The notes below the pieces were generated by a model. That model was given only the letters and a program-made list of their open reading frames with translations, was not told the DNA's origin and made no database searches. Both the position numbers and the translations under genes were made by a program. From Candidatus Desantisbacteria bacterium CG1_02_49_89 (GTDB taxonomy: Bacteria > Desantisbacteria > UBA1551), in contig MNUP01000129.1 of NCBI GenBank assembly GCA_001871075.1, positions 1-19,665 on the forward strand: a DNA stretch of 19,665 bases, in the 5' to 3' direction. Positions 5,091-17,771 of the stretch are shown here, piece after piece; position 1 is the stretch's first letter, and every line of letters begins with the position of its first letter.

Positions 5091-5094
5091 ATCG

Positions 5095-5200
5095 AATTAT
5101 GAATTATGAATGATGAGTTATGAATCAAAATCAAGGAGTTTTATTTAAATTCAATTCCATGTTGTTGACTCATAATTCATAACTCATAACTCATAATTAA
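5095..5200. repeat. TTATGAR inverted-repeat element, copy 1 (ftsZ-proC)
   Basis: The left arm (5095-5127) and right arm (5165-5200) are arrays of TTATGAA/TTATGAG that are reverse complements over about 33 bases with about 5 differences. They flank an AT-rich core containing AAGGAGTTTTATTTAAATT. The transcript could fold into a long hairpin ending just before the proC ribosome-binding site. Related copies lie at 9692-9803 and 13483-13580. Confidence 0.85.
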
Positions 5201-6360: not shown

Positions 6361-6366
6361 ATTCTC

Positions 6367-6373
6367 CCTCCTT
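6367..6373 (-). promoter_or_regulatory. Shine-Dalgarno that sets the ftsZ start
   Basis: AAGGAGG on the minus strand, 6 bases before ATG at 6360. It is near-perfect and supports high translation of FtsZ. It excludes the upstream in-frame ATG at 6402, which lies within repeat DNA. Confidence 0.85.
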
Positions 6374-6383
6374 TTTTGAAATT

Positions 6384-6534
6384 TGATTACGGTGATTTTC
6401 AACTGATGATTACGATGATTATTAAATAATGATTACGGTGATTATTAGAATAATGATCACAGCGATAAGTGCAACGATAGCAGTGATTTTAAAATTTATA
6501 ATCACTGTAATCATTCTTTAAATCACTGTAATCG
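6384..6534. repeat. GATTACR/GTGATTA repeat element, copy 1 (ftsA-ftsZ)
   Basis: Forward units GATTACGGTGATTWT occur near 6384 and 6432, with degenerate units GATCACA, GCGATAA, GTGCAAC, GATAGCA, GTGATTT after them. Reverse-complement units AATCACTGTAATC lie at about 6500 and 6521. The whole spacer is therefore an imperfect inverted repeat made of 7-base units. A related array lies at 7784-7910. Confidence 0.75.
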
Positions 6535-6541
6535 GTATTTA

Positions 6542-7762: not shown

Positions 7763-7767
7763 ATTCC

Positions 7768-7774
7768 CCTCCTT
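7768..7774 (-). promoter_or_regulatory. Shine-Dalgarno supporting the TTG start of ftsA
   Basis: AAGGAGG on the minus strand, 5 bases before TTG at 7762-7760. The TTTTTT-AAGGAGG leader matches that of ftsZ (both read AAAAAAGGAGG), suggesting a shared strong initiation signal in the two genes, with the weaker TTG codon lowering FtsA output relative to FtsZ. Confidence 0.75.
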
Positions 7775-7783
7775 TTTTAAGAT

Positions 7784-7910
7784 GACGATTACAGTGATTA
7801 TTTAAAAATGATTACGGTGATTATTAACTACTGACGATCTTTGCTTCGCAACATTCTTTGTGGGTCACGTCGATAAACGACGAATTACGGTGATTATACA
7901 ATGATTCTTT
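7784..7910. repeat. GATTACR/GTGATTA array, copy 2, with an embedded shared module (ftsQ-ftsA)
   Basis: Direct units ATTACRGTGATTAT occur near 7789, 7809 and 7883. Between the second and third lies a 26-base module (7840-7865) found again, inverted and exact, at 15144-15169. The third unit after the module suggests that the module or a larger element inserted into an older GATTACG array. Confidence 0.75.
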
Positions 7911-7939
7911 ACTTCTCAGCATGCTTTATATTATTAAAA

Positions 7940-8716: not shown

Positions 8717-9682
8717 TTATCTGCTCCTTGCCATCATGACGATCCTTGCCAGTAGTTCCTCGAACCCGATACCGGACGCTTTTGCCGATTCGGGGAAAAG
8801 CGAGAGTTCGGTCATGCCCGGAATCGTGTTAACTTCCAGGACATATATTCCGCTGCTGCCCATCCTGAAATCAACCCTTGAATAATCCCTGCAGCCCAGC
8901 GCCCTGTGGGCATGGAGGGCTAACTCCTGCACTTTCGCATAATCTCTTTCCCCGAGCGGCGCGGGAATAATATGCTCGCAGAATCCGGGGGTGTATTTTG
9001 CCTTAAAATCGTAGAAAGCCCTCCTGGGCTTCAGCTCTATGACCGCAAGCGCCTTGTTGCCCAGTATTCCCACAGAAAGCTCTTTCCCGCTTATATATTT
9101 TTCAACGATCACCTCGTTGCCGTATCTGAACGCGCTGCGCAAAATTGCTGCAAGTTCATTTTTGTTCCCGGCGATGCCTACCCCTATCGCCGACCCTTCC
9201 GAACTCGGTTTTACTACTACCGGAAAAGATAGTGAAACCGTGGACTGCCCGCCCTGCGCAAAGGCAGGGCGAGGTCTCGCCCCGATATTAATCGGGGCGG
9301 ATGGACCGTGGACTGTGGACTTATGCAGCACCTGGTACCGGGGAGTGGGGATGCCTTCGGAAACAAAGATCTTTTTTGCGAAAATTTTATCCATCGCAAG
9401 CGCTGAAGCAAGCACTCCCGAACCTGTATAAGGAATACCCATTCCCTCCAGGACCGCCTGTATGCCTCCGTCTTCACCGAACTTGCCGTGTATGCACAGG
9501 AATGCGACATCGAATTTTTTCCTGAAAAGCTCCTGGAAAGATCTTTTCCCTTTCAGGTCCAGGCAGGAAACCCTGAAACCCGCTTTTTTCAGCCCTTTCG
9601 CCACGGAAGATCCGCTCTTCAGCGAAATCGCCCTTTCACTCGACCATCCGCCCGAAAGCACCAGCACCCTTGTCTTCTTCAT
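8717..9682 (-). CDS. ddl: D-alanine--D-alanine ligase with an in-frame repeat insertion
   Basis: 321 aa ATP-grasp enzyme making D-Ala-D-Ala for MurF. The N-terminus has LSGGWSSER (9-17) for the family's GG.S.E; HGKFGEDG (65-72), the ATP-grasp strand FPVVVKPSSEGSAIGV (153-168) and EVNTIPGMTELS near the C-terminus are conserved. Residues 122-150 (nt 9233-9319) do not look like protein of this family: they translate GTGGACY heptamers and two perfect hairpins inserted between TPRYQVLHK and LSFPVVVKP, a loop before the ATP-grasp lid. Frame is kept and the core motifs are intact, so the enzyme is likely active. A Shine-Dalgarno AGGAG with 4-base gap precedes ATG, directly after the copy-2 TTATGAR element. 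Confidence 0.93.
   Translation of the reverse strand: MKKTRVLVLSGGWSSERAISLKSGSSVAKGLKKAGFRVSCLDLKGKRSFQELFRKKFDVAFLCIHGKFGEDGGIQAVLEGMGIPYTGSGVLASALAMDKIFAKKIFVSEGIPTPRYQVLHKSTVHGPSAPINIGARPRPAFAQGGQSTVSLSFPVVVKPSSEGSAIGVGIAGNKNELAAILRSAFRYGNEVIVEKYISGKELSVGILGNKALAVIELKPRRAFYDFKAKYTPGFCEHIIPAPLGERDYAKVQELALHAHRALGCRDYSRVDFRMGSSGIYVLEVNTIPGMTELSLFPESAKASGIGFEELLARIVMMARSR
9240..9321. repeat. Intragenic repeat in ddl: GTGGACY heptamers around two hairpins
   Basis: On the + strand GTGGACT (9240-9246); then CGCCCTGC/GCAGGGCG (9250-9257 with 9264-9271); then CGCCCCGAT/ATCGGGGCG (9278-9286 with 9291-9299); then ATGGACC, GTGGACT, GTGGACT (9301-9321). Both stems are perfect. The block lies in frame within ddl. 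Confidence 0.85.
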
Positions 9683-9691
9683 ACAACTCCT

Positions 9692-9803
9692 AATTATGAA
9701 TTATAAATTATGAATTATGAATCAACAACAAGGAGTTTTATCTTAATTCAGGGCAAAAGCCCTGATTCCTTCACTCATAATTCATAAATCATAATTCATA
9801 ATT
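9692..9803. repeat. TTATGAR inverted-repeat element, copy 2 (murB-ddl)
   Basis: The left arm 9692-9725 and right arm 9771-9803 are TTATGAA-type arrays that pair with each other. The core shares AAGGAGTTTTAT with copy 1 and the TTCACTCAT end with the reverse complement of copy 3. The core also carries a perfect 7-bp hairpin, TCAGGGC-AAAA-GCCCTGA (9748-9765). The element starts right after the murB stop and ends at the ddl ribosome-binding site. Confidence 0.85.
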
Positions 9804-13482: not shown

Positions 13483-13580
13483 AATTATGAGTTATGAATT
13501 ATGAGTTATGAGTGAAGGAATTTTATTTAAATGAAAATCCATGCCGTTGATTCATAATTCATCATTCATAATTCATAATT
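13483..13580. repeat. TTATGAR inverted-repeat element, copy 3 (murD-ftsW)
   Basis: The left arm (about 13483-13512) consists of TTATGAG/TTATGAA units; the right arm (about 13549-13580) is their complement. The core contains AAGGAATTTTATTTAAAT. Its TGAGTGAAGGAAT edge matches the reverse complement of copy 2, so copies sit in different orientations. It lies 27 bases before the ftsW start. Confidence 0.85.
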
Positions 13581-15000: not shown

Positions 15001-15195
15001 TAACCACACGATTACACAGATTTCCACGAGATGACGGTTTGACCGTCATTGCGAGCGGAGCGAAGCAATCTTGTATTGGATTGCTTCGTCATTTCATTCC
15101 TCGCAATGACATTTCTTGTGGAATTCGTCAGTCTTTCGATATTACCCACAAAGAATGTTGCGAAGCAAACAATCGCGTGAAATCTCGTGGTTATA
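15001..15195. repeat. Nested repeat element between mraY and murD
   Basis: The outer parts are degenerate decamers of the ACCACGGATT type: AACCACACGATTACACAG at 15002-15019, and the complement of ACCACGAGATTTCACGCGAT at about 15173-15192. Inside lie TGACGGT-TTG-ACCGTCA (15032-15048), the CATTGCGAG palindrome (15045-15110), and the 26-base module at 15144-15169 shared with 7840-7865. No open reading frame in it looks real. Confidence 0.8.
15045..15110. repeat. CATTGCGAG-type palindromic element
   Basis: GTCATTGCGAG (15045-15055) pairs with CTCGCAATGAC (15100-15110), and GAAGCAATC (15062-15070) pairs with GATTGCTTC (15079-15087). Palindromes with this same GTCATTGCGAG end are, as I recall, dispersed in intergenic DNA of unrelated bacteria including Rickettsia. 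It looks like a non-autonomous mobile palindrome. Confidence 0.85.
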
Positions 15196-15224: not shown

Positions 15225-16313
15225 TTATCTTAGCTTGAGCGTTGAAAAAGTCACAAGCGCAAGAATTATGTTAATGATCCAGAACCTGACAACGACCTTC
15301 GGTTCAGGCCAGCCCTTCAGTTCAAAATGGTGGTGCAGGGGTGTCATCTTAAAGATCCTTTTCCCGGTAAGCTTGAAACAGGTAACCTGCAGTATGACGG
15401 ATACTATCTCCACGAGGAATATTCCCCCGACGATCAGCAGGAGTATCTCCTTGCGGACAAGAAGCGCGACAAGCCCTATAGCTCCGCCGAGAGCCAGGGC
15501 TCCGGTGTCACCCATAAAAACCTGCGACGGGTATGAATTGAACCACAGGAACCCAAGGCCCGCGCCCATCATTGCTGAAAGGTAAACGGTCAGCTCGCTG
15601 CTCTGCTGCACGAAAGGTATCAGCAGGTACTGGCTGAACTTGAAATTTCCGGTGAAGTAGGCGAACAGCCCCATGGTCGCGGCTGTTATCACAACCCCTC
15701 CTATAGCCAGCCCGTCCAGCCCGTCTGTCAGGTTGACCGCGTTCGACGAGAACATTATCACCAGCGCGGCGAACGGGACATACAGGATCCCGAGCCTTAT
15801 GAGCGCGTCCTTAAAAAACGGCACTGTAACGTCGGAAAAGCCGGCTGTTTCCGGCGACATGTAAAGGAACACGCCTACCGCAGTGCCTATAAAAGCCTGG
15901 GCCGTGAGTTTCTGCCACGGCTTCAGACCCCCGGGCTTCCCTTTCTTAAGCTTCAGGTAATCGTCAAGGAAACCTACAAGGCCCAGGAACACCGTGCATA
16001 TGAGAGCCGCGTGTATGAAGGAATTGTCAAGCCTCGCCCACAGGGCGGTTGAGATAACGAGTGTCAAAACTATAAGCAATCCGCCCATTGTCGGCGTGCC
16101 CACCTTTGCCTTGTGCTGCTGCTCGAAGAGCGGGAACTCCCTGACCGTGTCACCCACCTTGGCCTGCTGCAGCCTTTTAATTATCCAGGGCCCCAGCGTT
16201 ATTGTGAGCACGAGGCTTAGCAGGGCCGCGCCGGCTGACCTGAACGTTATATACCGCAGAACGTTGAACCCGAAAAAGTGATCACGAAGAGGGAACAACA
16301 GATGATAAAACAT
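15225..16313 (-). CDS. mraY: Phospho-N-acetylmuramoyl-pentapeptide transferase
   Basis: 362 aa, about ten membrane segments. It transfers phospho-MurNAc-pentapeptide to undecaprenyl phosphate, giving lipid I. Signature residues are DDYLKLKKG (117-125), SNAVNLTDGLDGLAIG (190-205), FMGDTGALALGG (267-278) and the TPLHHHFE block (324-331). Length is typical. The ATG at 16313 has GGAGG upstream and lies inside murF: the two genes overlap by 32 bases, so translation is probably coupled. This is the only normal tight overlap in the upper half of the cluster apart from ddl-ftsQ. Confidence 0.97.
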   Translation of the reverse strand: MFYHLLFPLRDHFFGFNVLRYITFRSAGAALLSLVLTITLGPWIIKRLQQAKVGDTVREFPLFEQQHKAKVGTPTMGGLLIVLTLVISTALWARLDNSFIHAALICTVFLGLVGFLDDYLKLKKGKPGGLKPWQKLTAQAFIGTAVGVFLYMSPETAGFSDVTVPFFKDALIRLGILYVPFAALVIMFSSNAVNLTDGLDGLAIGGVVITAATMGLFAYFTGNFKFSQYLLIPFVQQSSELTVYLSAMMGAGLGFLWFNSYPSQVFMGDTGALALGGAIGLVALLVRKEILLLIVGGIFLVEIVSVILQVTCFKLTGKRIFKMTPLHHHFELKGWPEPKVVVRFWIINIILALVTFSTLKLR

Positions 16314-17733
16314 CCAGCACCTCCTCCATTTTAGCTTTGCGGGAACCCTTTACAAGGAGCATATCGCCCTTTCTGGCCTCCCGCTTCAGTTCTTTTATAA
16401 GTTCTTTTTTATCGGTAAAAGCGCGGGCGCAGCCGCCTTTCAGGGCGAATTTTTTCGCGGTTACGCGCGCGAGGTTTCCCAGCGTGAAGAGGATATCCAC
16501 CCCCGCCTTTTTAATATCTTCTGAGATCTTCCTGTGCGCCGGGACCGCGAGCCTGCCAAGTTCCAGCATGTCCCCGAGTACAAGGATCTTTCTTTTCCCG
16601 GGGATCTCCCCGAGGAAGGAAACCGCCTGGCACACGGATGATGGGTTGGCGTTATACGCGTCGTTTATAATTGTGATGCCGCCGGATTTTTTTATCTCCA
16701 TCCTCATAGGCGGGCTTTCAGCGCTCTCGATTCCTTTTTTAATAAGTTCCGCCCGTATCCCCATGGCATATCCGGCTGCCGCGCCTGCGAGCGCGTTGTA
16801 TACGTTAAAAAGCCCCGGCATAGTAAGCTTTGTTTCAAGCGTTTTTGAACCCAGGCTCAGCCTGAAAGAACTTCTGCATCCCGATATTTTTATGTCAGAA
16901 GCGCAAACGTTCCTCCTGTTATTGAAGGCGTAGTTGCCTGAAATCCCGTATGTAACCAGCCTGACCGAGGGGGGTATGTTCCCGGACTTGATCCACCTGC
17001 GGGCCATAGCATCGTCAGCGTTAAGGACTGCCGTTCCCCCTGCACGCAATCCCTTTATAAGGGAGAACTTCTCCCTTGCGACGCCGCCTACGCTTTTCAG
17101 CCCTTCAATGTGGCTCATACCGATATTCGTAACCACTCCTGCCGTTGGTCTGGCTATCTCAACCAGCCTCCTGATCTCACCGTAAGCGTTCGTGCCCAAC
17201 TCAAGAACTGCGGCTTTATGCCTGCGGCCCAGCCCGAACAGCGTGAGCGGCACCCCGACCTCATTGTTGAAGTTCCCCTTATTTTTCAGGACGTGCCTGC
17301 GCCCGAATTTCATGCCCAGTATGCTCCAGATTATTTCCTTTGTGGTTGTTTTGCCGTTGCTGCCTGTCACGCATATCACCGGGATCCTTCGCCTCATCCT
17401 GCAGAAATTCGCTATGTCCTGCATCGCCCTCAAAGTATCCCCCACCGCAATAACTACCGGTTGAACGTTGAAAGTTGAACGTTGAAAGTTTTTAAACTTA
17501 CGACTTACGACGCACGACGCACGACGCACGAGCATTCCTGCCGCTCCTCCCGCCACTGCTTTGGCAAGGAAATCATGGGCGTCGAAATTTTTGCCTTTCA
17601 GCGCGATGAACAGGTCTCCTTTTTTAACACTGCGTGTATCGGTAGAAATGTTTTTAAAAGAAGCGCGTATGTCCCCGCTGATAAGCCTTCCTTTTGTCGC
17701 CTTTAATATTTCTCTAACGGTCATCTTTTCCAT
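16282..17733 (-). CDS. murF: UDP-MurNAc-tripeptide--D-Ala-D-Ala ligase with an in-frame repeat insertion
   Basis: 483 aa. It adds D-Ala-D-Ala to complete the pentapeptide precursor. The N-terminal DTRSVKKGDLFIALKG (32-47), the P-loop GSNGKTTTK (124-132), NKGNFNNEVGVPLTL (151-165) and NDAYNANPSS are classic. Residues 70-91 (nt 17461-17526) are translated repeat DNA between AAGMLV and PVVIAVGDTLRAM, a site at the end of the N-terminal domain where family members go nearly straight from strand to strand. The frame and all motifs survive. The start may be ATG 17733 or 17724 (residue 4); no strong Shine-Dalgarno decides it, the nearest AAGG being in the murE-murF heptamer array. Confidence 0.94.
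   Translation of the reverse strand: MEKMTVREILKATKGRLISGDIRASFKNISTDTRSVKKGDLFIALKGKNFDAHDFLAKAVAGGAAGMLVRRASCVVSRKFKNFQRSTFNVQPVVIAVGDTLRAMQDIANFCRMRRRIPVICVTGSNGKTTTKEIIWSILGMKFGRRHVLKNKGNFNNEVGVPLTLFGLGRRHKAAVLELGTNAYGEIRRLVEIARPTAGVVTNIGMSHIEGLKSVGGVAREKFSLIKGLRAGGTAVLNADDAMARRWIKSGNIPPSVRLVTYGISGNYAFNNRRNVCASDIKISGCRSSFRLSLGSKTLETKLTMPGLFNVYNALAGAAAGYAMGIRAELIKKGIESAESPPMRMEIKKSGGITIINDAYNANPSSVCQAVSFLGEIPGKRKILVLGDMLELGRLAVPAHRKISEDIKKAGVDILFTLGNLARVTAKKFALKGGCARAFTDKKELIKELKREARKGDMLLVKGSRKAKMEEVLDVLSSVVPSS
17460..17530. repeat. Intragenic repeat in murF: two heptamer arrays back to back
   Basis: + strand: GTTGAAC, GTTGAAA, GTTGAAC, GTTGAAA (17460-17487), a short GTTTTTAA junction, then ACTTACG twice and ACGCACG three times (17496-17530). 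The two arrays are unrelated in sequence but share the 7-base unit. Together they add about 22 codons without stop codons or frameshift. Confidence 0.88.
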
Positions 17734-17738
17734 GTTTT

Positions 17739-17771
17739 AACTTTCAACCTTTAACTTTTAACCTTTAACTG
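17739..17771. repeat. GTTAAAR heptamer array at the murE-murF junction
   Basis: + strand units AACTTTC, AACCTTT, AACTTTT, AACCTTT, AACTG. Read on the minus strand they supply the TAA stop of murE (17767-17765) and the only AAGG near the murF start. The array is the same family as the one ending ftsW (12322-12349). Confidence 0.85.

Follow-up and report, generated by a model that had tools for sequence, protein, structure and literature searches.

The murF gene of this genome carries two different heptanucleotide arrays in its reading frame, and we consider it probable that these are two members of a heptamer class dispersed over the whole genome, lodged in a permissive loop of MurF and read through as filler. 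The window, that is, the whole stretch of 19,665 nucleotides that was analysed, is an entire contig (C59) of a 2.48-Mb draft genome in 150 contigs. For comparison, 58 relatives were drawn, one of which (G001) belongs to the same order as the window genome, the rest being related to it only at the level of the domain.

Two heptamer arrays in the murF reading frame

The murF gene (16282-17733, minus strand) encodes a protein of 483 amino acids in an intact frame, with the Pfam domains Mur_ligase, Mur_ligase_M and Mur_ligase_C. Its sequence resembles the MurF proteins of PDB entries 1gg4 and 4cvk, and its best fold matches are solved MurF structures; the three Mur ligase domains and this similarity place it among the MurF ligases. 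The first array (17460-17490, minus strand; 31 nt, about 4.4 units; sense sequence AACTTTCAACGTTCAACTTTCAACGTTCAAC) alternates GTTGAAC and GTTGAAA and encodes NFQRSTFNVQ(P), corresponding to MurF residues 82-92. It recurs with 31 of 31 bases identical elsewhere in the genome (G000:C71). A junction of 5 nt (17491-17495, minus strand) separates it from the second array (17496-17531, minus strand; 36 nt, about 5.1 units), which in the sense direction consists of three TCGTGCG units followed by two TCGTAAG units, and on the forward strand appears as ACTTACG, then ACGACGC. This second array encodes approximately (V)RRASCVVSRK, residues 68-80, and the ACGACGC family has 11 occurrences in the genome sample described below, 9 of them genic. 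Another heptamer array (17735-17769, no strand assigned) fills the gap between murE and murF and extends to the end of murE.

Both murF arrays were detected by TRF and by an independent period-7 scan, with scores of 15 and 23, and 100 dinucleotide-model shuffles of the window yielded no match with a score of at least 11. The sequence-only reading, which had placed two different heptamer arrays back to back and in frame within murF, is thereby corroborated, both arrays being detected and the frame being open. Its count of nine units totalling 63 nt has to be corrected, as the block amounts to 31 + 5 + 36 = 72 nt, equivalent to 24 codons (about residues 68-92). A palindromic element was ruled out for this stretch, which is made of pure direct repeats; no inverted repeat of at least 10 nt is present in 17400-17600.

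Position of the arrays in the N-terminal domain

On the MurF alignment, the array block follows the strand that ends in GAAGMLV and precedes the strand VVIAV, ahead of the P-loop. The connection between these strands, as counted on the alignment, comprises 35 residues in the window MurF, 30 in the nearest relative (at order level) and 23-38 elsewhere, and the E. coli and P. aeruginosa proteins show gaps of 14-15 residues opposite the array block. This loop differs in both length and sequence between MurF proteins. The AlphaFold2 model of the window MurF has a mean pLDDT of 91.5 and a pTM of 0.91, with pLDDT falling to 68-69 over residues 71-90, between the strands at 66-69 and 93-96. The arrays thus make up, or take the place of, a permissive loop at the surface of the N-terminal domain. 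It had been proposed that about 22 residues are added between strands of this domain. A repeat-derived peptide does lie between two strands, but it replaces a loop and is not a plain addition: the loop exceeds that of the nearest relative by 5 residues and those of E. coli and P. aeruginosa MurF by 14-15. Comparison with other MurF proteins also bore out that the array peptide is not conserved in distant MurF. Since the frames are open and the length changes described below are in frame, we favour the view that the arrays would be translated rather than removed.

A dispersed class of heptamer arrays

Both murF arrays have matches at many further sites of the genome. The genome sample covered 576 kb, of which 241 kb were unselected and 335 kb were chosen by similarity to the murF arrays. 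Array density reached 27 per 100 kb in the unselected part and 31 per 100 kb in the selected part, about 30 overall. The order-level relative G001 has 0.8 per 100 kb, G028 has 0, and 80 murF loci from other bacteria have 3.4. No arrays appeared in shuffles, and periods other than 7 within the range of 5 to 13 were much rarer. The window genome holds, in other words, a dispersed class of heptamer arrays in numbers far above chance. Among 170 arrays there are 54 distinct units, where 153 would be expected from random genomic heptamers, a sharing that may partly reflect composition or selection for certain heptamers and not copying. The mode of array length is 31 nt, that is, four units plus 3 nt, whatever the sequence, and lengths are 3 modulo 7 in 51 of the 170 arrays, which reads as (XXXYYYY)4XXX. 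Four units are preferred between genes (68 of 102 arrays) as within them (34 of 47), and this preference persists among the 142 of 170 arrays whose units are free of GG or CC; no unit with GGG or CCC was found in the sample. The earlier supposition that the number of units must be a multiple of three is contradicted by these counts; it need not be, as arrays do not begin and end at unit boundaries.

Genic arrays account for 47 of the 170, and for 10 of 65 in the unselected part of the sample, genes having been called with a home-made hexamer model. They are located in recognisable enzymes, including ROK, integrase, PALP, RnfC, Dxr, PriA, glutamate synthase and others, and the idea that such repeats are special to this operon or to wall genes does not hold. 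The sense strand is stop-free in all frames in 42 of the 47 genic arrays, versus about 43% per strand between genes, a bias that is partly true by definition, given how genes are called. A heptamer strand without stops is stop-free in every frame because seven is not a multiple of three, so that the same cyclic peptide of seven residues is read in all three frames; such an array can therefore be tolerated in a gene. As a separate observation, several apparent signal peptides owe part of their hydrophobic segment to heptamer arrays, for example LLLLLVV-TFQLSALSFEL-ACAQ (arrays at L053 2966-2995, 4922-4952 and 9279-9310; L046 987-1017; L154 9653-9684; L155 13590-13614).

The same MurF loop in other lineages

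The array scan of 167 distinct MurF frames identified 14 arrays in 11 genomes; ten of these genomes account for the 11 arrays that fall at residues 68-96 of the window MurF. These 11 comprise the two of the window, those of six Thermodesulfovibrionales (units of the GTTCACG, AATTCAG, GATTTCA and AATTTCA types), one in Nitrospira (TTCCAAT) and one in each of two Omnitrophota (ACCCAAT and GTCACCA). Of the remaining three, one is at residues 19-26, one near residue 146 and one at the C-terminus. When the arrays are counted as eight presumed separate events, five of these lie within 6% of MurF (P about 4e-5 under uniform placement, a model that ignores viability, which also limits array position). 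Presumably, about five separate lineages would have filled this loop, namely the window phylum, Thermodesulfovibrionales, Nitrospira and Omnitrophota twice, their separateness being argued from unit sequence and taxonomy rather than from a reconciled tree. The loop holds no array in G076, whose MurF is 82% identical to that of G059, nor in the nearest relative G001.

Turnover of arrays in related genomes

Base identity between the genomes G059 and G108 is about 94% at this locus. Their array lengths agree in MurE, in MurF and in three slots of MurD; a further MurD slot differs by 15 nt, and in another a TCAGCCA-type array has taken the place of an AAATTTC array, the length differing by 3 nt. 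Upstream, an open frame shows a 42-nt difference with paired arrays, and two more differences, of 39 and 5 nt, are found outside recognised frames. The genic changes in array length are multiples of three, and not always of seven. The expectation that only frame-preserving lengths would be seen is thus upheld for the genic array regions of this pair, which differ by 0, 3, 15 or 42 nt, while its corollary that the unit count is bound to three is not. The MurF array has a constant length in three related genomes (G059, G108 and G088); no close relative of the window genome was found. A clean empty site beside a filled one was not encountered, and about 16 kb of additional aligned synteny between G059 and G108 contained no arrays with orthologous flanks.

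In several Thermodesulfovibrionales, a single MurD protein has arrays in as many as four separate loops (L244-L246 of G059 and G108, L249, L251, L252). One of these slots is occupied by arrays of the GGCAATA type or of the AAGAGTC type, depending on the species, and sister species differ. G076, a single contig of 2.37 Mb, has arrays in murD and murB.

Other repeats in the window

The ddl gene (8717-9682) had been put forward as a second wall gene bearing repeat-derived peptide. An in-frame insert is indeed present (9234-9316), but the heptamer array is short (9302-9321, score 10) and near the noise limit. The insert consists mainly of an element of about 57 nt with the palindromes CGCCCCGATTAATATCGGGGCG and CGCCCTGCCTTTGCGCAGGGCG, flanked by direct repeats CAGTCCACGGT and having about 40 related places in the genome; like a Rickettsia palindromic element it is in frame, and the short heptamer array lies next to it. 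Three intergenic elements of 95-112 nt (5094-5196, 9692-9803 and 13485-13580) lie between co-directional genes and are composed of a heptamer arm, a core like AAGGAnTTTTATTTAAAT...TTCCTTG and an inverted heptamer arm. Elements of this AATTATG type have 10 copies in the genome sample, and the core is matched exactly at 7 places in the genome. Between murD and mraY, a palindrome-like repeat GTCATTGCGAGCGGAGCGAAGCAATC...CTCGCAATGAC (15043-15122) has the appearance of a REP or MITE. Motifs like GATTACGGTGATTAT are repeated with a spacing of about 23 nt at 6361-6541 and 7763-7939, upstream of ftsZ and ftsA, and may possibly constitute a shared operator. The only Rfam match in the window, group II intron D1-D4-4 (RF02003; 71-209, minus strand), is located near the contig end.

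Discussion

Dispersed unit families, a set array length, reuse of slots, replacement of one array by another and keeping of the frame are all observed. The reading that we regard as probable is that the murF arrays originated in, or were inserted into, a permissive loop at the protein surface, and that the array peptide would be made and be neutral or nearly so. As to their origin, we tentatively suggest that an array may appear in one block of some four units, when DNA synthesis in the course of repair copies or slips on an array that is already present and serves as the template. Selection would then retain in-frame, stop-free arrays in loops, signal-peptide cores or gaps between genes, and these arrays may later decay by point mutation or be swapped for another. 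Acting in this way on reading frame, stop codons and position in loops, selection would account for the places in which arrays survive. A more far-reaching version, which we hold to be rather doubtful, is that a recurrent copying process in several phyla produces arrays of fixed length (about 31 nt, or four units and three further bases) in many sequences and swaps them within one slot; the MurF and MurD loops would thereby become interchangeable cassettes, with a peptide dictated by DNA repeats and not by protein selection.

It could also be hypothesised that each array grew locally as a microsatellite, by strand slippage on a chance duplication of 7 bases, without loci exchanging arrays. That heptamer repeats are in excess in bacteria has long been noted, with no accepted cause (PMC4692102, which cites work of 2007); polymerase slippage in a 7-base register is one proposal cited there. 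This proposal, together with the pure direct repeats of murF and their lack of inverted arms, would suit local growth, but the small number of unit families, the peak of array lengths at 31 nt where a fall-off would be anticipated, the equal lengths of the orthologous MurF arrays in G059, G108 and G088, and the replacement of a MurD array by an unrelated heptamer make it unlikely. We find it improbable that the array is a functional adaptation, in which the peptide is selected, for instance for contacts with other Mur enzymes, or the DNA or RNA form acts as a regulatory element. Repeated use of one MurF loop and some peptide features kept there by related species are consistent with such a role; the peptides are nevertheless wholly different between lineages, the array is absent from G001 and G076, unrelated enzymes carry arrays too, and the RNA of the murF stretch folds no better than shuffles (z = 0.73).

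A phase-variation switch, with changes in unit number turning MurF on and off, has precedents in the phase-variable heptanucleotide repeats of the HMW adhesins of Haemophilus and of neuO of E. coli. MurF is essential, however, and a frame change in its gene should therefore be lethal; with arrays that are short, mixed in sequence and of constant length in the three related genomes, we give this possibility very little weight. Much the same holds for an assembly artefact of the metagenome-assembled genome: the window is one contig of a 150-contig draft, but a typical read is longer than these arrays (31-36 nt) and the murF frame is intact. An assembly error is unlikely because the same loop is filled in separate genomes and because arrays occur in murD and murB of the single-contig G076.

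The nearest described kinds of repeat are the Geobacter four-heptamer elements and the TAACTGA and GGGNATC repeats, while Rickettsia palindromic elements and Borg repeats are parallels in effect. The four-unit elements of Geobacter metallireducens have the consensus GGACCGG / GGGACCG (PMC2700814), which the murF units GTTGAAC/GTTGAAA, ACTTACG and ACGACGC do not fit; where Geobacter has one consensus, the window genome has dozens of unit families, mostly free of GG or CC, and one loop is reused across phyla. The TAACTGA direct repeats of marine Beggiatoaceae comprise 2-6 units and are mostly intergenic, with some in open frames, including one at the MurG end, and they extend to distant phyla (PMC4679880). 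The present arrays are similar in being heptameric, in lying partly in open frames and in being spread over distant phyla. In that study, however, a single heptamer is concerned, related heptamers being rare as direct repeats, and genic copies are mostly at protein ends (PMC4679880), whereas the arrays described here occupy internal loops of essential enzymes; the murF units are not TAACTGA, nor is TAACTGA among the 25 commonest units of the genome sample. For the GGGNATC heptamers of Xanthomonas and Nostoc, the preference has been tied to G-quadruplexes (PMC4692102). In the window genome, four units are favoured in units without G-runs, and G-quadruplex formation therefore does not explain the four-unit length.

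Rickettsia palindromic elements, which are palindromes of about 150 bp (reviewed in PMC10969869), are alike in that they too are dispersed, insert in frame into many genes unrelated to one another and are tolerated there as additional peptide; the murF stretch differs in being built of direct repeats and having no inverted arms. Tandem repeats in open frames of Borg elements also create new protein segments, but their genic unit lengths are all divisible by three (PMC9879509), whereas the murF unit is seven. Apart from the MurG end (PMC4679880), we found no published report of heptamer arrays in Mur enzyme loops, in a literature search that lay mostly outside subscription journals, and neither a recurrent MurF slot nor array exchange in one slot is reported in the papers found. 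The single MurF slot, which contains different arrays or none in related genomes, offers a natural test bed, and the arrays represent a route by which repeats that are not multiples of a codon would give rise to new stretches of protein, opposite to the Borg rule.
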